DNA from: an uncultured Bacteroidota bacterium
GTDB taxonomy: Bacteria; Bacteroidota; Bacteroidia; NS11-12g; UBA9320
Direction of reading: 5' to 3'
NCBI GenBank assembly: GCA_937124965.1
Contig: CAKZLB010000013.1
Location: forward strand, 124,001 to 188,000
DNA length: 64,000 bases
Every line of letters begins with the position of its first letter. Positions within the stretch are counted from its first letter, which is position 1. The notes under the pieces are model-generated. The model ran no database searches, was not told where the DNA came from, and was given only the letters and a program-made list of their open reading frames with translations. This document shows, one piece after another, positions 29,464 to 46,990 of the stretch. Both the position numbers and the translations under genes were made by a program.

Positions 29464-29757
29464 ATGACAGATTTTTATGTTGTTAAAATGTTGCCTACAA
29501 ACTCAAATGTTGATTTTTTATTACCTTAGTTCAAACATAAAATCGTGCATAGTCCCTTCGCTTTTGAAAGTTTAAACTAACCACCCAACCTTTTATGAGT
29601 TATTCCCGTATATGTAACCAAAAAACGATAAACCCATGAAAAGCTCTTGTCTATCTATTTTGTTTCTGATTTCGTCAATCCAACTGTTTATGCAAAAAAA
29701 GAATTTTACACCATTTTTTTTTAATCGCTTTATTTGGTTGTCGTTAAAGATACCAAC
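29464..29757. other. Relic sequence between the transposase remnant and the second duplication copy
   Basis: No intact gene. An ATG at 29636 opens a frame that starts like a signal peptide (MKSSCLSILFLISSIQLF) and runs in frame into the gene at 29798. Because 29798 has its own signal peptide, the upstream part is more likely a relic. Around 29700-29757 the - strand weakly resembles the first codons and leader of the gene at 28898 (AAAGCGAT followed by a run of A, then TGGTGT), suggesting a degraded second copy of it. Confidence 0.45.
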
Positions 29758-29949
29758 AAAATGGAATCGATTGCGTCTCATTGTAAACCGCCTAATTATG
29801 AAACACATTATATCAACAATTTTACTTTCCCTTTTTAGCTTTACTTCTAGTTATTCCGCCAATATATATTCAGCCCTCTTATCGCACAAGACAACAGATA
29901 ATGAGGTTTTCGAAATCTCGTTCATCGTTCAAACTCCAGCCACCGATTC
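29758..29949 (+). repeat. Right copy of a local direct duplication
   Basis: Counterpart of 28939-29130. In this copy the + strand gene starting at 29798 is intact, whereas the - strand gene start found at the left copy is degraded. Confidence 0.85.
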
Positions 29950-31522
29950 TGTGCTAGCGAAAAGTGATTATTCCTTAACCATAACAGATTTACAAACAAA
30001 AAATAGTTACAGTTTACCTGAGCCTACTTTAATTTCAAAACACAAAAGTTCTGCTTATTGTGATGACTATTATCCTTCAATTTGGGTTTTGGAATACAAA
30101 ACAATTATTGATCTCAACGATAGCAAGTATTCAAGTTTATTGTCAAGTTGTAGTGTACGTGTTGCTCTAACATTTAAAAATCGAGCAGGCGGAACAACGT
30201 TAGATTCTGGTCAGAGTAGCGATATGTACATTTACGAAGAGCTTATCAAATGTGGAACGCATGCTAACAAAGTTTCGGTTAGCCGTCTTAATCCTCCTCA
30301 ATGGGCTGCTTGCACAAACATCAACGCTTATTTCTCACTTCAATCTTCTGATCAAACTGAATTTGATTCAATAAGCTACGAATTGGTTAATCCAATGCTT
30401 TCAGATTCTATTTACGCAAAATACGCCAGTGGTTATTCGAGTAACAATCCACTTTCGGTAGCAACCACCACGGCATTTAAATTTGATCAAAAAACTGGCG
30501 AATTTATATTTACTCCATCAGATACAGCAGATAGCAGGTCGTCTGTGGGAGTACTTACGACTGAATGGAGAAAAGGCAAATCTGGCAACTATCTTATAAT
30601 AGGCCGTAATTTACAGGAAGTTATCTTCTTTGTTCAAAACTGTCCAGGGAACAACCCTCCAATGATAAAGGCTCCGTTTACTCATGAAATTTGTGAGGGA
30701 GAACAATTATGCTTTACCATTTCAACCGAAGATAAAGTAAGTGTTCCTCCACCTCCTCTCCCAAAACCAAGTCCCGACTCTGTGTCATTAAGATGGAATC
30801 GAGGAATACCTAGTGCTACATTTACCATTCTAAACCCCAATGCACAGCACCAATCTGGTCAATTTTGTTGGACACCATCGGATGGAACTGGAAGCACTTT
30901 GCCTTATACTTTCACCACAAGTGCTCGCGATAATTTTTGTCCTTACCCAATGGAAACAGTCCGTTCGTTTCACATTTATGTTCGTCCAAAACCAAAGGGG
31001 CAAACGAGTATTTCACGAATTACAGACTCTACATACTCGGTATCTATTGAATTGAAAGACACGTCTAATCCAAGAATAACGTATCAGCTAAGATCCATCG
31101 ATGGCAGTTTAGTATTTGATAAGAATATTGGTTATTTCAGAAGCACCGAGTCTTTTACGAGTACCAAATTAAAAGACACTCTGCTCATTAAACTTGCGAA
31201 CGATTTTATAATTCAATCAACCATCGAAAATCGCACTAATACGTTATGCAAGGTCGACAATTTCGATACCCTGAATTACAAAACTTTAAGTCTATCTAGA
31301 GTAACAAAGGAGTCGTTCACGTTTTTTCCAAACCCCACTCGTGGAGTTGTGAATTTTAACTTTATTATAACAGATGTACGTGTTACAAATTGTCAAGGGC
31401 AATTATTAATCAGAAAGGAAAGCACTAACGCGGTCGATTTATCCCATCTCAATCCGGGCATCTATTACATCACGGGATTTGATGGGGCTTCGCACTATAG
31501 TGGATCTGTAATTAAGTATTAA
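29798..31522 (+). CDS. Secreted protein with T9SS type A sorting domain, distant paralogue of the 44829-46883 protein
   Basis: ATG 29798 is chosen because it gives a clean signal peptide (MKHIISTILLSLFSFTSSYS) and aligns with the ATG of the decayed copy at 28983. The 574-residue product has an N-terminal beta domain, then a segment ending GNNPPMIKAPFTHEICEGE, an Ig-like domain containing SARDNFCP, and a T9SS type A domain from about residue 508 (FFPNPTRGVVNFNF). The order 'SYELVNP..., FTP, EWRxGK..., CEGE, SARDNxCP' parallels the protein at 44829-46883, so the two are probably distant paralogues. Surface display is expected; function unknown. Its stop overlaps the convergent small gene by 4 nt. 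Confidence 0.82.
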   Translation: MKHIISTILLSLFSFTSSYSANIYSALLSHKTTDNEVFEISFIVQTPATDSVLAKSDYSLTITDLQTKNSYSLPEPTLISKHKSSAYCDDYYPSIWVLEYKTIIDLNDSKYSSLLSSCSVRVALTFKNRAGGTTLDSGQSSDMYIYEELIKCGTHANKVSVSRLNPPQWAACTNINAYFSLQSSDQTEFDSISYELVNPMLSDSIYAKYASGYSSNNPLSVATTTAFKFDQKTGEFIFTPSDTADSRSSVGVLTTEWRKGKSGNYLIIGRNLQEVIFFVQNCPGNNPPMIKAPFTHEICEGEQLCFTISTEDKVSVPPPPLPKPSPDSVSLRWNRGIPSATFTILNPNAQHQSGQFCWTPSDGTGSTLPYTFTTSARDNFCPYPMETVRSFHIYVRPKPKGQTSISRITDSTYSVSIELKDTSNPRITYQLRSIDGSLVFDKNIGYFRSTESFTSTKLKDTLLIKLANDFIIQSTIENRTNTLCKVDNFDTLNYKTLSLSRVTKESFTFFPNPTRGVVNFNFIITDVRVTNCQGQLLIRKESTNAVDLSHLNPGIYYITGFDGASHYSGSVIKY

Positions 31523-40117: not shown

Positions 40118-42535
40118 CTAAAACGTAATTCTGTAAATTCCGATTGGGAAAAGGCCTGTTTGATACGTTGTTCGATACTCCTGTGCTTCCGCATCATATT
40201 GCATAGAGAAAATATTCTCGCGATTTGAAATGTTTTGAATATCAACACCCCATTCTTGCGTAATTTTCTTTGCTTGAACTTTGTAGGCAAGCCGGATATC
40301 ACATCGTGCATAATCTTGATATTGAAGTTCATTCGTCCGAAGTCTATAATAAACAACTTCACCTTCATTTCCAGTTGCTTCCGTATTAACAGGAGTGTGT
40401 CTTTGGCCGCCATTTAAAACAAATTTCAAATCTACAGTCAAGCTACTTTTAGACGTTTTACCTTTTTTGTTTGTCATAGTTTTGAAGTAAAACTCTTTCC
40501 CTCCCAAAACGTTAACCGCGTATTTGGAATCAAACACAGTTGGGTATTCTTGTCCGTCACGTGCTGTGTAAAGTGATCGATATAATGACACTGTATTCAA
40601 GAAATAGAAACCTTTTGACAAAAATCGTTCAAAGGTTATTTCCAAACCCACGTTTCGACCTAACCCTGAATTCTGAAGATTATCGGTAAAATTAATTCCA
40701 AAATCGGCGCCTTGGTTTAACATTGAATAATACAGATTTGTATCACCATCCATTGGCACGTCAAACATATGTTGATAATACGTTTCAACTTTTAATCGAG
40801 CATTATCACCAATATAAAAATCATGGGAAAGAACAAAGTGGTGACTTTTTGTAAAGCCTAAATCTTGATTTATTTTTCGTTTGTTTCCAGCGCTGTCCGT
40901 CACTTCTTCAAAATACACTCTAAATGGTGATATCAAGCTATGCAACCCATAACCAGCGCTCACCTCATATTTGCTTGTTACCTTATACTTAATTCCAAGT
41001 CTTGGTTCTAGCGACTGTGCTCCGTTAAGCGCAAAACGAGAATAGTTTAAACCAATATTTGCTTTAAGTCTATTGTTAAACCTGTGGCGATGGTTTACAA
41101 AAGCCTGTAACATGGAAGTTGCACCAGAAAAATCAGTTGGCTGAACCCAAAAGCGATATTGACTTGAGAAGAGACTGTCTTGAAGATTAAAGAAATAATC
41201 ATAGTATCGTACACCTGCCTTTAGTGCATTTTTTGCATTAAACTTATGCTCTATTATCGCATTCAACGAATACTTTCCTTGTCTAGAATCGTCACGATAC
41301 TTGCCTCCAAGTTCAGTGATCATTCCATCCTGCAAAACAAAAGTATCTAGTATCGTTTTGGTTTGAACAGCGTCAACTGCGGCTATTAGTTTTAGATTCG
41401 TTTTAGTGGATAGTTTGTGTTTTCTGGAAATTCCAAATACACCAGTGTTAGTGTTGTAGGCTAAATCTTCCTGGTCGCCTCGGTACGCATTTGCACCAGC
41501 GTCATCTTCACTTTGAAAAAGTTCAAGACCACTTAAACCTCCAACGCCGAATATACTCGTAGTTCCTTTTTTATCAGGAAAATTAAGTTTCATGGTTACG
41601 TCTTGATACTGTGGAATTGCAGCTCCAGTGCCAAAGTCTAAGCCAATAGTTTGAAAAAAGCCTAATACCGAATATCGATAATTGATTAAATATGATGATT
41701 TCCTTTTTCGAGAAATTGGCCCTTCAGCCATCACTTCAAACCCTGCAAAACCCACCTGACCTAAAAATTCGTGTTTGTCATTGTTACCTTCCCGCATTCC
41801 CAAATCAAATACTGCTGAAGTAGTATTTGCGTATTCGGCGGGAAACGCTCCCGTAAGAAAGTCAGAATTCTTGAGCACATTATTGTTTAACATACTCACC
41901 GGACCACCAGTTGTTCCGGCTGCCGCAAAGTGGTTAGGGTTTGGAATGTCGACTCCTTCTAAACGATACAACACACCAATGGGTGAATTCCCACGAACAA
42001 TGATATCATTTCTAAAATCGTTTGCACCTTGCACACCTGCAAAGTTTTGAGCCATTCGAGCTACGTCTCCCCTACTTCCAGCATATCGTTGCGACTCTTC
42101 AACTGAGAACGTCCGTCCACTAACGCTGACGACATTATTTTGGACTTTCCGTTTGTCTTTAGACATATCAATTACCGCAGCTTTTAATTTGTTTGTAGTT
42201 TCCTGCATTTTAAGAGACAGAACTACTTGTTTGCTAGAGGTTACTTCAATTTGATTCAAACGAACTACTTCATATCCTGCGTAGGAACATATTACAGTAT
42301 AACGACCAACTGCGATTCCTTCGATTCGAAAATCCCCATTTTCATCACTCAGCGCTCCGTATTGGTTAGAATCATTAAAGACCTCAATGGTCGCTGCTAT
42401 TAATACTTCTTCGGTAACTATATCTTTAACCGAACCACGTATTGTTTGGGACAATTGTGCGTACGAATACGACGAACTTAGGAGAATGGAGCTTAACAGT
42501 AAAAGAATGTAACATGTAATGTTTCGTGCATTCAT
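40118..42535 (-). CDS. TonB-dependent receptor with carboxypeptidase-like regulatory domain
   Basis: An 805-residue outer-membrane receptor. Signal peptide ends near SSSYSYAQ. A CarboxypepD_reg-like beta domain follows (about 33-115: GSVKDIVTEEVLIAATIEVF, GRYTVICSYAGYEVV), then the Plug (about 130-250: FAGVQGANDFRNDIIVRGNS, GVDIPNPNHFAAAGTTGGP) and a 22-strand-type barrel ending in FPIGIYRITF with the terminal aromatic. This is the Bacteroidota SusC-like form that imports ligands too large for porins. No SusD partner is adjacent, so substrate cannot be inferred; a peptide or metal-chelate receptor is possible. Two 20-bp direct repeats lie 77-116 nt upstream of its ATG. Confidence 0.93.
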   Translation of the reverse strand: MNARNITCYILLLLSSILLSSSYSYAQLSQTIRGSVKDIVTEEVLIAATIEVFNDSNQYGALSDENGDFRIEGIAVGRYTVICSYAGYEVVRLNQIEVTSSKQVVLSLKMQETTNKLKAAVIDMSKDKRKVQNNVVSVSGRTFSVEESQRYAGSRGDVARMAQNFAGVQGANDFRNDIIVRGNSPIGVLYRLEGVDIPNPNHFAAAGTTGGPVSMLNNNVLKNSDFLTGAFPAEYANTTSAVFDLGMREGNNDKHEFLGQVGFAGFEVMAEGPISRKRKSSYLINYRYSVLGFFQTIGLDFGTGAAIPQYQDVTMKLNFPDKKGTTSIFGVGGLSGLELFQSEDDAGANAYRGDQEDLAYNTNTGVFGISRKHKLSTKTNLKLIAAVDAVQTKTILDTFVLQDGMITELGGKYRDDSRQGKYSLNAIIEHKFNAKNALKAGVRYYDYFFNLQDSLFSSQYRFWVQPTDFSGATSMLQAFVNHRHRFNNRLKANIGLNYSRFALNGAQSLEPRLGIKYKVTSKYEVSAGYGLHSLISPFRVYFEEVTDSAGNKRKINQDLGFTKSHHFVLSHDFYIGDNARLKVETYYQHMFDVPMDGDTNLYYSMLNQGADFGINFTDNLQNSGLGRNVGLEITFERFLSKGFYFLNTVSLYRSLYTARDGQEYPTVFDSKYAVNVLGGKEFYFKTMTNKKGKTSKSSLTVDLKFVLNGGQRHTPVNTEATGNEGEVVYYRLRTNELQYQDYARCDIRLAYKVQAKKITQEWGVDIQNISNRENIFSMQYDAEAQEYRTTYQTGLFPIGIYRITF

Positions 42536-42697: not shown

Positions 42698-44218
42698 CTA
42701 CCTAAACCGATAACTTAATCGCAGTTCCGAGTTAATTCTCGAGAAGTTTAAATCGTTTAACAGCTGGTCACTTTGTTCAGTTCGCAATGCAAATTTCGAT
42801 TCTAGCCCTATCAAAAAACGATGACCAACGTTATAATTTATACCGACACCAGCTATAGCTGCAAAGTTCCACTCAGAAGATTTTGAAAAGGGTAATTCTG
42901 AAAAACTTTGAGTCCCAGAGTCAAATGATGATCCGGTTAATGATGTTACGTTGTTGCCAATGACACCGACAAGTGTATTTATTGTAAAGTCATACCTAGA
43001 ATCAATTTTATAGTATGCCAATAGCGGAATTTGGACGTTTCTAGTAAATATTTTATCTGCAAGAATCTCTTTTCGAAGTTGAGTATTAAATCGTGTGGAG
43101 TCTATCACTTCCTCAACTAGCCAATATTTTACTCCTTCTACATAATATTCCTGCGAACGAACAATTACACTTGTATCATATGAATACGCATACTCGTCGG
43201 CCATAATTTGCTGATTAAACTGAAATTTTGATTTCTGGAAGCCAACAGACAACCCATATTTCTGGCGATCATAGCGCACATCGAACCCCATATATCGTGA
43301 TGCAATTCCAGTTATGTCATATTGATAGTCTGCATAGAATACTGTAGATTTTGAATTTAATGGCTGAGAAATTCCACTGAAAGCAGAAACGTACCAACCA
43401 GCACTCGGTTTGCCGAAACAATATCTTCTGAAATCAATATCATATTCGTTCAACACCTCTCTTGTGTGGTGGTAAAGCGTATTTTCCTCTTTTGCATCTA
43501 GAAACAGTAATTCATCGTGTGAGACTATATAACCATCGTTTATAATCTCTGTATTTGTATTCTCTTCCGAACTCTTGACTTCCGATGATGCAATTGGCGC
43601 CTGGTTAATTTCTTGTGTCTTTTCAACTTCTTTTTGATTGCGAACAGGTGAACCATATCCACTAGGACGCATTTTTTTAGTCTTTACTAAGTTTCGACTT
43701 AGTTCTTGATTATTGAGTAGCGCTTGGTGAACTTTAGGATTCGAAATATTTGTTGTTTCCTTACTTTGCACATTTGTGCCTAGTGTATTGGAGTAACTTG
43801 ATTTAGTCAAACTCGTAGTCTCAAACTCTAGTTTTTCAGTTTCTTGCTCGGTGTAAGCTACACTTCCCTTTGTTAGTGATTTCTGGTCGTTTGAGTCATT
43901 CGTATTTTGTAAAGTTGATAATCTAATGGTCTCGTTCTTTTCAGTAGGTTGCTTATTTTCTGTGTTAGAATTAGAAGAACTTAGTAGTTCTATGTTTTCA
44001 CTGGTGAATTTTGAATCCAGTCTCTGCTGGAACATCAAAAGTGCAGTTATCACAGCAATTAGTGCACTAATTGTATACGTTTTCCACGTCCAAAAAACCT
44101 TCTTTTTTGGTTGGATTAACTTTTCAGCCTCTTCCCAAGCATGTGGTTCAAACGGAACCACTTCTTTCTCAAGATGCTCTCTAAAAAGTTCGTCGATATG
44201 TTTATCCTCCATGCTCAT
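42698..44218 (-). CDS. Predicted dual-membrane-spanning anti-sigma factor with outer-membrane beta-barrel
   Basis: ATG 44218 is chosen because it overlaps the sigma stop (ATGA, 44215-44218) and removes an upstream non-homologous extension. The 506-residue product begins with a short cytosolic anti-sigma-like segment (DELFREHLEKEVVPFEPHAW, with the PxxxW pattern of Bacteroidota anti-sigma proteins), then one inner-membrane helix at about 47-63 (TYTISALIAVITALLMF). A Ser/Thr/Asn-rich linker of roughly 200 residues follows, then a C-terminal beta-barrel-like region (about 280-506) ending INSELRLSYRFR. This order matches the dual membrane-spanning anti-sigma (Dma) architecture described in Bacteroides. 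It probably holds the sigma factor at the membrane and releases it on envelope signals. Confidence 0.8.
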   Translation of the reverse strand: MSMEDKHIDELFREHLEKEVVPFEPHAWEEAEKLIQPKKKVFWTWKTYTISALIAVITALLMFQQRLDSKFTSENIELLSSSNSNTENKQPTEKNETIRLSTLQNTNDSNDQKSLTKGSVAYTEQETEKLEFETTSLTKSSYSNTLGTNVQSKETTNISNPKVHQALLNNQELSRNLVKTKKMRPSGYGSPVRNQKEVEKTQEINQAPIASSEVKSSEENTNTEIINDGYIVSHDELLFLDAKEENTLYHHTREVLNEYDIDFRRYCFGKPSAGWYVSAFSGISQPLNSKSTVFYADYQYDITGIASRYMGFDVRYDRQKYGLSVGFQKSKFQFNQQIMADEYAYSYDTSVIVRSQEYYVEGVKYWLVEEVIDSTRFNTQLRKEILADKIFTRNVQIPLLAYYKIDSRYDFTINTLVGVIGNNVTSLTGSSFDSGTQSFSELPFSKSSEWNFAAIAGVGINYNVGHRFLIGLESKFALRTEQSDQLLNDLNFSRINSELRLSYRFR

Positions 44219-44778
44219 GTTGCACTCATTTTTTGTTTTTCTCCCATGGTTTGCAGTCCGATTTTTAATAATTGGCGGGCTTCTGAAACGTGCCATTTTG
44301 AAGTCCCTTCACTAATTTCTAGTAGCTTACTTATTTCCTTATGTGAATACCCATCTATTGCAAATAGGTTAAACACATGGTTCGTTTTAGTGGGTAATGC
44401 TTTGAGCAATTGTTTGAGATATTCCGCATCTAACTTCTGTTCTCCTGTATTTAAAGTCGAGGTATATGTCGATAAGTCTGCATGATCTATACTTTCAGTA
44501 CGGTCTCTTTCGATGCTCGCTTTTTTAATTTCAGTAAGCATTTGGTTGATAATAATTCGTTTTGCCCAACCCTCAAAAACATCTAAGTCTTTTAGCTCAT
44601 TTAAATTGCTAAGTATTTTTACAAACGCTGTGTTTAACGAAACAACAGCATCGTTCTTATTTTCACGATAACGAATACACATCCCCATAAATCGATCATA
44701 CAATAAGCGATACAGCTCCGACTGAGCTTTCCGCTCTTCTCGAAGACACCCCTCTAATATGTTTTGATCAATTTTCAT
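44215..44778 (-). CDS. ECF-type RNA polymerase sigma factor
   Basis: The 187-residue protein starts at ATG 44778; the TTG at 44796 adds six residues inside an upstream hairpin and is less likely. Region 2 spans about 20-95 (ELYRLLYDRFMGMCIRYREN, NLNELKDLDVFEGWAKRIII) and region 4 about 125-180 (LLKALPTKTNHVFNLFAIDG, YSHKEISKLLEISEGTSKWH). There is no region 1 or 3, as in group 4 sigma factors. A 4-nt overlap couples it to the anti-sigma gene. It would drive an envelope-stress regulon; the receptor gene beyond the anti-sigma is a candidate target. Confidence 0.9.
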   Translation of the reverse strand: MKIDQNILEGCLREERKAQSELYRLLYDRFMGMCIRYRENKNDAVVSLNTAFVKILSNLNELKDLDVFEGWAKRIIINQMLTEIKKASIERDRTESIDHADLSTYTSTLNTGEQKLDAEYLKQLLKALPTKTNHVFNLFAIDGYSHKEISKLLEISEGTSKWHVSEARQLLKIGLQTMGEKQKMSAT

Positions 44779-44780
44779 AA

Positions 44781-44813
44781 AAAAGAAAATGGCCAATAAA
44801 ATTGACCATTTCC
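44781..44813 (-). terminator. Intrinsic terminator-like hairpin directly before the sigma start codon
   Basis: On the - strand AAATGGTCAAT pairs with ATTGGCCATTT (one G-U pair) around a short loop, followed by TTCTTTTTTATG, so the T-run reaches the sigma ATG. It should end transcription from the gene at 44829-46883, or act as a leader hairpin for the sigma gene if a promoter lies upstream. Confidence 0.7.
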
Positions 44814-44828
44814 AATATCATGGTTTTG

Positions 44829-46883
44829 TTAATTCCTTTTAATGACTTTCCTATTTATTACCTCACCTTCTGCTGTTTGTATGGTGATAAAATATAGCCC
44901 AGGTATAAAACTAGACGTGTTGATTTCCGCTGTACTACTGCTAATATCATTTCCCACATAGACCGTCCGACCGCTTAAATCTATGAGTTTGACAGTTCTG
45001 ATAGCAGTTTCAGGAAGTACTACAGTAAGTTTATTTGTAAATGGAACTGGATAAACTGACATATTATCGATTGATAAAGATCTGTTCGTAGACACAAAAT
45101 CATTAACCATAACTATCGTAAATCCTTCTACCTTATACAAGCGTCCAAGGGAATCCATTCCAATAGAATCGCAGTAGATATCTTCACAATTTTTATTTGA
45201 AACTTTCAAACACACTTCATATTTACCAAATTTAGTAAATTTATGAAAACCTGTTCCTTTCACAGAATCTCCGTCACTAAAGTACCATGCGTTTGACGAG
45301 TCTCCAGTAGATGTGTTAATCAAATAAATTCGGAATTTCTTCGACTGATTTGTATCTAGTCCAATAGTGTAATGTGCCTTACAGGACTTTGGTGTTAAAT
45401 TTTTGACAACTGAGTCAGTGTAGTAATAATTATTTCCGCACTTGTCACTAAATGAATGCATTACTATCAGCTTGACGTTATAGCTTGTATCAAGTTTTAG
45501 CGTTGAGTCCCAGTTATCAAATCTAGACACCAACCTACCATCTAAATACCACGTGCTTCCCAAGATTGACTTTGGTTCACTTGATGTATTTATAAAATGA
45601 GTTACCGCACTGTCGACTGACATTTCAAAATCCACAGTTGGAGCAACCATTTTTGGCACAACCCTGATAATAACAGTTTTCTGAACGATCTCATTTATGG
45701 GACACGAATTATCCCTCGCACTAAAAGTAACCACATATGGGGTATTCTTTCCATCTCCAACATTTGTTTTCCAGCTAAAAGTGCCGTGGTTAAATATTGA
45801 ATCATACGATTTAAATACAGCACCAGGCAACGAGTTTTCAATAGACAAGAACACTGAGTCAGTTCCACCTGACTTTGCCGTATCTGCATCATCTGACGTG
45901 GTTATCTTAAAGTCAACCTTTTCTCCCTCAACCACGCATATTTCATCTGGTGCTAAGACTTTGTGCATTACATTCCCCGTACCAGTTGTTACCCAAAACT
46001 GCATTTCGCGTCGCGTAACAGAGATTAACTTTCCGTTTCTGTATTCTTTTACTTTTAAAACCAAGATACTAACCTCTCCATTTTTAACCGGAGTAAAAGT
46101 GACGTATCCCGTTTTACTGTTAACGTTAAAACCTATCGGTGGATTTGCATTTGGGTTAGAGTACGGATATGATGTTCCAGTTGGGTAATACACGGTAAAA
46201 GGTTGATCTTTATAAAAACCTGTATTGTAATTCGCCTTTTGAGTCGCATTAATTAATGGGTCATCCGTTTCAAAAACCAGCGAATCTCCGTCTAAATCAT
46301 ATCCACCAAAATTTCTTTTAAAGGGTTGATTTACGGTTAGAATTGTAAACGGCATTTCATAGAAAACAGGACTATTATTCGAGATTCCTCCTGTTGTATA
46401 AATTTCAGCGTATGTATAAAAGTTGGAACTATTCGACCCAGTAGTAATCGCGGAGTTTCGACAACACTGTGCGGTATAAACGTAAAACTTATCGCCAGTC
46501 AAAAGAAATTTATGAGTTGAATCGTTTAGATTAATCGTATCACGATAGGTGTGTTTCTCTATTCCCGCCGTTGATCCAGGTGTATTTTGTGGATTACAAT
46601 TACTCTTTACCGTATCACAAACTGGAGTAATATTAACAATACTAATAAGTTTAAGATTTGAACCAATAGACTGTGTTCGTGTTGCGTTCTCATATCTTGT
46701 GGCGTTAACAATTGAAGGCAAAGGAACTCCTCTACAATCACGATACACTTCGATTGTGATCTCATAAACGTGTTTACCAAGGCTTCTGTACGTAATGTCT
46801 GCACCAGCAACATGAGTAGCCTTTGATGAAAAGGCGAATAAGATAAATAGAATAGTGGCTGTCAGTTTAATTAAGGTTTTCAT
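44829..46883 (-). CDS. Secreted PKD/Ig-like protein with T9SS type A sorting domain
   Basis: A 684-residue protein with signal peptide ending near FSSKA. It opens with THVAGADITYRSLGKHVYEI and YRDCRG, a domain very common at the N-terminus of Bacteroidota secreted repeat proteins. A beta domain then ends VVEGEKVDFKIT and is followed by an Ig-like segment (SARDNSCPINEIV), two PKD-like domains (about 415-590), and a T9SS type A domain from about 610 (MSVYPVPFTNKLTVVLP). Surface display is expected. It ends in a strong hairpin just before the sigma gene, so it is transcribed separately. The 29798 protein shares its overall module order. Confidence 0.87.
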   Translation of the reverse strand: MKTLIKLTATILFILFAFSSKATHVAGADITYRSLGKHVYEITIEVYRDCRGVPLPSIVNATRYENATRTQSIGSNLKLISIVNITPVCDTVKSNCNPQNTPGSTAGIEKHTYRDTINLNDSTHKFLLTGDKFYVYTAQCCRNSAITTGSNSSNFYTYAEIYTTGGISNNSPVFYEMPFTILTVNQPFKRNFGGYDLDGDSLVFETDDPLINATQKANYNTGFYKDQPFTVYYPTGTSYPYSNPNANPPIGFNVNSKTGYVTFTPVKNGEVSILVLKVKEYRNGKLISVTRREMQFWVTTGTGNVMHKVLAPDEICVVEGEKVDFKITTSDDADTAKSGGTDSVFLSIENSLPGAVFKSYDSIFNHGTFSWKTNVGDGKNTPYVVTFSARDNSCPINEIVQKTVIIRVVPKMVAPTVDFEMSVDSAVTHFINTSSEPKSILGSTWYLDGRLVSRFDNWDSTLKLDTSYNVKLIVMHSFSDKCGNNYYYTDSVVKNLTPKSCKAHYTIGLDTNQSKKFRIYLINTSTGDSSNAWYFSDGDSVKGTGFHKFTKFGKYEVCLKVSNKNCEDIYCDSIGMDSLGRLYKVEGFTIVMVNDFVSTNRSLSIDNMSVYPVPFTNKLTVVLPETAIRTVKLIDLSGRTVYVGNDISSSTAEINTSSFIPGLYFITIQTAEGEVINRKVIKRN

Positions 46884-46990
46884 ATTATTTTGTTTTCAGG
46901 TCTAAGACTAAACCAACGTTGAAAAGGTTGGGAAAAAGTGTGAAATATTTCGTTTTTGTTCTGAAAAATCTTACAAAAACCTTTAAAACA

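Follow-up and report, generated by a model that had tools for sequence, protein, structure and literature searches.

This locus raises the question of whether a single protein chain can connect the outer membrane of a bacterium of the Bacteroidota with an ECF sigma factor in the cytosol and, if so, which genes such a system controls. The genes concerned lie on the minus strand of a 64,000-nucleotide stretch of contig CAKZLB010000013.1 (assembly GCA_937124965.1), called the window in the following, in the order T9SS-tail gene (44829-46883), sigma factor gene (44215-44778), anti-sigma candidate (42698-44218) and receptor-like gene (40118-42535). The 187-residue sigma factor is recognized by the Pfam models Sigma70_r4_2 (E 1.5e-11) and Sigma70_ECF (E 2.2e-5, over the cut-off); no ECF21 model is present among its NCBIfam matches, the best subfamily matches staying below their own cut-offs. 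Its gene overlaps by 4 nt (ATGA at 44218-44215) with that of a 506-residue protein ending in SYRFR, so that the ORF coordinates agree with the overlap given in the initial annotation. The bacterium was taken there for a probable flavobacterium, which holds as far as the class Bacteroidia, with relatives of Flavobacteriales type.

As judged from its sequence, the 506-residue protein falls into four parts. Residues 1-44 (44087-44218) make up a putative sigma-binding cytosolic segment with the motif (I/L)D.LF..KL....F....W..AE.L, of which Trp28 is invariant in 35/35 aligned N-domains (alignment A3); the N-terminal profile, searched against solved structures, found matches at chance level only. 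A single inner-membrane helix, previously proposed for residues 47-63, is placed by hydropathy at residues 45-63 (44030-44086), which represent the Kyte-Doolittle peak of the protein (1.59 over 19 residues) and are preceded by KKK, and no second hydrophobic segment over the threshold is detected by the same criterion. Because this helix starts only at residue 45, behind the conserved cytosolic motif, it is not at the position of a cleavable signal peptide. The following 205 residues (64-268; 43415-44029) show low hydrophobicity, a content of 59% S/T/N/Q/E/K and a FoldIndex of -0.13, and are predicted to form a disordered periplasmic tether, in agreement with the linker of about 200 residues expected from the initial annotation.

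The remaining part of the chain, residues 271-506 (42701-43408), is modelled as an 8-stranded outer-membrane barrel on the basis of AlphaFold and structural neighbours. The Pfam family OMP_b-brl_2 matches the C-terminus weakly (E 2.6e-4, below the Pfam cut-off), and since the full chain reached a pLDDT of only 32 in AlphaFold without an alignment, only the barrel was folded with its relatives. Residues 240-506, aligned with the C-termini of 46 relatives, yielded 8 strands with a mean pLDDT of 78 and a pTM of 0.68, including a weak region at model residues 195-206. The nearest solved folds are those of OmpA (Z 17.2 over 163 residues, rmsd 3.0), NspA (16.9) and OmpW (15.4), the structural matches spanning about 155-170 residues. 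The full-chain prediction is thus uninformative, but the model obtained from the relatives-aligned C-terminus does contain a barrel and supports, as a model, the outer-membrane barrel claimed for this part of the protein.

A protein of this kind is familiar from another branch of the phylum, the founding paper on the Dma proteins of Bacteroides reportedly being that of Pardue in PNAS in 2024. A Dma protein is defined as a chain of anti-sigma domain, helix, disordered tether and C-terminal barrel whose gene adjoins that of an ECF21 sigma factor, and the loss of Dma2 takes effect only through the cognate sigma factor (PMC13088901). The pair M0N98_03760-61 of Phocaeicola vulgatus, which responds to envelope stress, follows the same plan (PMC9308784). 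The window pair combines an adjacent ECF sigma factor, an N-terminal segment with one helix, a predicted tether and a modelled barrel, and because it shares the four-part plan of these anti-sigma proteins (Pardue 2024, 2026; Evans 2022) it is assigned to the known Dma kind, as already suspected when it was matched to the dual membrane-spanning anti-sigma type of Bacteroides. What is supported is a Dma-type pair of already-known design, the likeness being one of architecture.

The same architecture recurs among the relatives of the sigma factor, of which 80 were fetched out of at least 564 confirmed. Nearly all of these are annotated as Bacteroidota, the rest being unclassified or probably mislabelled MAGs; L090 ('Verrucomicrobia' SAT140) and L104 ('Chryseobacterium gleum' MAG) contain this module as well and cluster with sequences of Flavobacteriales type, and their labels are probably wrong. 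Nearly all members of the fetched set with enough flanking sequence are directly followed by the same kind of partner gene, which usually overlaps with the sigma gene or is separated from it by a few bases. With HMMs built up from the 506-residue protein, 89/91 candidate partner proteins are matched in the N-terminal 60 residues and 78/91 in the barrel, where nearly all of the 91 proteins are sigma-linked and most misses are cut off by contig ends, and these matches argue for an architecture that is more than chance. A scan of the genome contigs with the anti-sigma protein alone gave no match, which is ascribed to its fast evolution, while the sigma alignment did find relatives. The N-domain is present in 189 of the 247 sampled Bacteroidia genomes, with the highest number of matches in the window's own genome (8, of which 7 are Dma-like and 1 is a VWA/YfbK-type protein); two further loci of this genome, L052 and L064, are additional Dma-like candidates by barrel or layout. 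The two-membrane anti-sigma design appears to reach well beyond gut Bacteroides, a single genome containing at least seven copies.

This comparison also bears on the possibility that the barrel is only an anchor, while sensing takes place in the tether or by ordinary regulated proteolysis of the helix, as with RseA. The length of the tether varies widely among the relatives, and no test of the sigma release step is described in PMC13088901 or in the available part of PMC9308784, which would suit such a role; however, it is the barrel and not the tether that is kept in nearly every full-length relative, and we regard the pure anchor as the less likely alternative. A barrel sensing the outer membrane, which would fit the Phocaeicola case, is the preferred reading. 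The additional proposal of the initial annotation that the signal passes without a protease cascade finds no support in this analysis, in PMC13088901 or in the available part of PMC9308784.

Several variants of the module are encountered among the related loci. The sigma-binding motif is present in 2 to 4 tandem copies followed by a single helix in L143:6558-8126, L145:6483-8177, L116:1770-3218, L130:6559-8001 and L087:6560-7969, and the Crocinitomix loci L140, L146, L153, L155 and L161 likewise contain 2 to 4 tandem cytosolic motifs ahead of one membrane helix. Such tandem motifs, which two or more distinct lineages of sigma factors show, may make the anti-sigma proteins multivalent, and these could then hold several sigma molecules. 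About 50 related loci (L085-L164) contain a third gene straight after the anti-sigma gene, which codes for a probable lipoprotein of ~375 residues with the end ..AVAYP (e.g., L087:7966-9093, L110:6185-7336 and L122:7868-8992), is PKD-like in at least some cases and is missing from the window locus. Another sigma/Dma pair, found family-wide (L049, L069-L071, L073, L076 and L077), is accompanied by a gene for ~810-830 residues straight after the anti-sigma gene, whose product bears a T9SS tail in L049. Two further arrangements occur in the window's own genome: the ECF sigma gene of L051:2969-4823 (C13:621500-630500) is followed by that of a 430-residue single-helix protein in which a CHU_C domain (E 9.2e-12), a type IX secretion domain, replaces the barrel at the end, and the one of L050:1639-4638 (C67) by that of an 806-residue single-helix protein, in which VWA and YfbK_C domains are present and the N-domain is matched weakly.

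As a neighbour of the pair, the initial annotation named a TonB receptor. The 805-residue protein in question (40118-42535) is a TonB-receptor-like outer-membrane protein with CarboxypepD_reg domains (E 3.4e-14), but its Plug match is sub-threshold (E 0.015) and it contains no signalling domain, so only part of that designation stands. Its gene lies on the same strand, 162 nt downstream of the anti-sigma gene, as might be expected if the receptor were the sensor in a cell-surface signalling system of the FecR/FecA type. Nevertheless, Pfam scans up to E 1 revealed neither a FecR domain in the anti-sigma protein nor an STN signalling domain in the receptor, and among the related loci inspected the receptor-like gene is not a conserved neighbour, which renders a FecR/FecA-type system highly improbable and any part of the receptor-like protein in the Dma-type system doubtful.

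The more telling neighbour is the T9SS cargo gene upstream of the sigma gene, which was absent from the initial annotation. It is located at 44829-46883, 50 nt upstream of the sigma gene, and codes for a PKD-type protein of 684 residues with a T9SS sorting tail (Por_Secre_tail 3.6e-11, TIGR04183 7.1e-11). As at least 150 Por_Secre_tail genes are present in the same genome, this adjacency alone means little, and the gene may be a bystander that reflects the abundance of T9SS cargo, next to a Dma-type pair whose sigma factor controls envelope genes elsewhere. Against this, a same-strand T9SS-tail gene occurs directly upstream of the sigma gene in 23/54 relatives, compared to 22/217 among the other same-strand genes of the same loci (Fisher p 2e-7, the relatives not being independent samples), and directly downstream of the anti-sigma gene in 0/59 relatives. 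In the sigma tree, the window belongs to a 7-member clade (support 96/88), in which all seven members possess the upstream T9SS gene and which takes in two paralogues from the same genome as well as representatives of other families; the branch of the window is long and its exact place unsure. The presence of this gene clusters on the tree (9 changes vs 23.8 in shuffles), and the upstream T9SS proteins of the relatives resemble that of the window mainly over the last ~190 residues.

A further point against a bystander is a promoter-like motif that moves with the T9SS gene. The motif CCAAC-N17-CGT was found in the 7-member clade, where it precedes the T9SS gene in 6/7 members and takes the form CCAAC-N17-AGT in the window, and was then tested on loci unused for its discovery. 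In total it is present upstream of the T9SS gene at 20/28 loci, including 14/21 outside the clade, against a chance expectation of 0.13 (mean of 300 dinucleotide shuffles, with a maximum of 2). Upstream of the sigma gene, the motif is found only once among these 28 loci, and in 35/61 cases among the loci that have no such T9SS gene. The spacing between AAC and CGT shows a strong peak at 17 and is elsewhere near background, except for N22 (5/28). The motif therefore heads the cluster whichever gene is first, which fits an autoregulated ECF operon, and because of this position the T9SS-secreted protein is probably a direct target of the sigma factor in an autoregulated cluster. The candidate promoter of the window itself, CCCAAC-N17-AGT (46907-46932, minus strand), stops 23 nt short of the T9SS start codon and deviates from the family consensus by one mismatch in the -10 box (AGT vs CGT).

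Across the whole genome the motif shows no enrichment over its reversed form (27 sites vs 19, or 14 vs 14 when one mismatch is permitted) and hence defines no regulon by itself. A second candidate site in the window, CCCAACCTTTT-N12-CGT (29584-29609, plus strand), lies ahead of the T9SS-tail gene 29636-31522 and shares CCCAACCTTTT with the site at 46907, and the T9SS proteins encoded at 29636-31522 and 44829-46883 are 27% identical (E 4e-22). Exact copies of CCCAACCTTTT-N13-GT occur at 4 sites in the genome, two of them ahead of the pair of T9SS homologues in the window, the third shortly before a gene for a secreted or outer-membrane-like protein and the fourth inside a tRNA-synthetase-like gene. 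The likely true start codon of the gene at 29636-31522 is at 29798, so the leader behind the candidate site would be long; for this reason, and given the missing genome-wide enrichment, this gene as a second sigma target is a lead only.

The stretch from the T9SS stop codon to the sigma ATG contains a terminator-like hairpin of 13 bp followed by TTTTTT (44785-44813, minus strand; dG -14.5, z -3.7), which ends 7 nt before the ATG, and because of it the T9SS gene and the sigma gene may not be fully cotranscribed. Strong hairpins are present at this position in several related loci, but not in L058, L131, L090 and L124. As the hairpin leaves no room for a separate promoter between itself and the ATG, transcription probably enters the sigma gene by read-through, with a promoter within the T9SS gene as another possible origin. 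The hairpin and the imperfect promoter of the window speak for a T9SS gene that is a bystander, which we nevertheless consider unlikely in view of the enrichment and the motif described above. What we regard as quite likely is a Dma pair whose sigma factor drives its own cluster, with the T9SS PKD protein first and the sigma and anti-sigma genes thereafter.

In such a system, the first ~44 residues of the 506-residue protein would retain the ECF sigma factor at the inner membrane, which would be crossed by the single helix, while the flexible tether of ~205 residues would traverse the periplasm to an 8-stranded barrel inserted in the outer membrane. A disturbance of the outer membrane or of the barrel would set the sigma factor free, most likely via loss or cleavage of the anti-sigma protein, and the freed sigma factor would transcribe its own cluster from the CCAAC-N17-CGT-type promoter at its head. 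The T9SS-exported PKD protein would then be made first, followed by more sigma and anti-sigma protein past the attenuating hairpin. Whether this extends to a subfamily of two-membrane anti-sigma proteins in T9SS-bearing Bacteroidota is, in our estimate, evenly balanced: these would close a regulatory loop with a surface protein exported by the T9SS, the sigma factor driving that protein and itself from the shared CCAAC-N17-CGT promoter, and the barrel reporting back, perhaps on the delivery of that protein. Relative to the known examples, as described in PMC13088901 and in the available part of PMC9308784, what is new is a candidate promoter together with an adjacent gene predicted to be a direct target, and what a Dma system controls becomes a testable question at this locus.

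Of the systems already described, Dma1/Das1 and Dma2/Das2 of Bacteroides thetaiotaomicron resemble the window pair in the adjacent ECF sigma factor, the N-terminal segment, the single helix, the tether and the barrel (PMC13088901). Vesiculation and glycan-use loci are influenced by Dma1 and Dma2, the latter lying in an operon with BT_1557 (PMC13088901), whereas the window has a T9SS surface-protein gene ahead of the sigma gene. The pair M0N98_03760-61 of Phocaeicola vulgatus likewise consists of an anti-sigma protein predicted to span the periplasm and to carry an outer-membrane barrel, with a sigma gene upstream, but an antibacterial toxin induces it and it is connected with longer O-antigen, with no T9SS link reported in the available part of the source (PMC9308784). 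The SM6 promoters of Flavobacterium psychrophilum share with the family consensus a CGT -10 box, which is ascribed to an ECF sigma factor, and drive T9SS genes and one sigma/anti-sigma pair, yet their targets named in the available part of the account include T9SS machinery (PMC9723704). Finally, the PorXY-SigP system of Porphyromonas gingivalis is a two-component system rather than a two-membrane anti-sigma system, but together with PorA it provides, like the window, a case in which a protein with a T9SS C-terminal domain is tied to ECF sigma signalling (PMC7712824).
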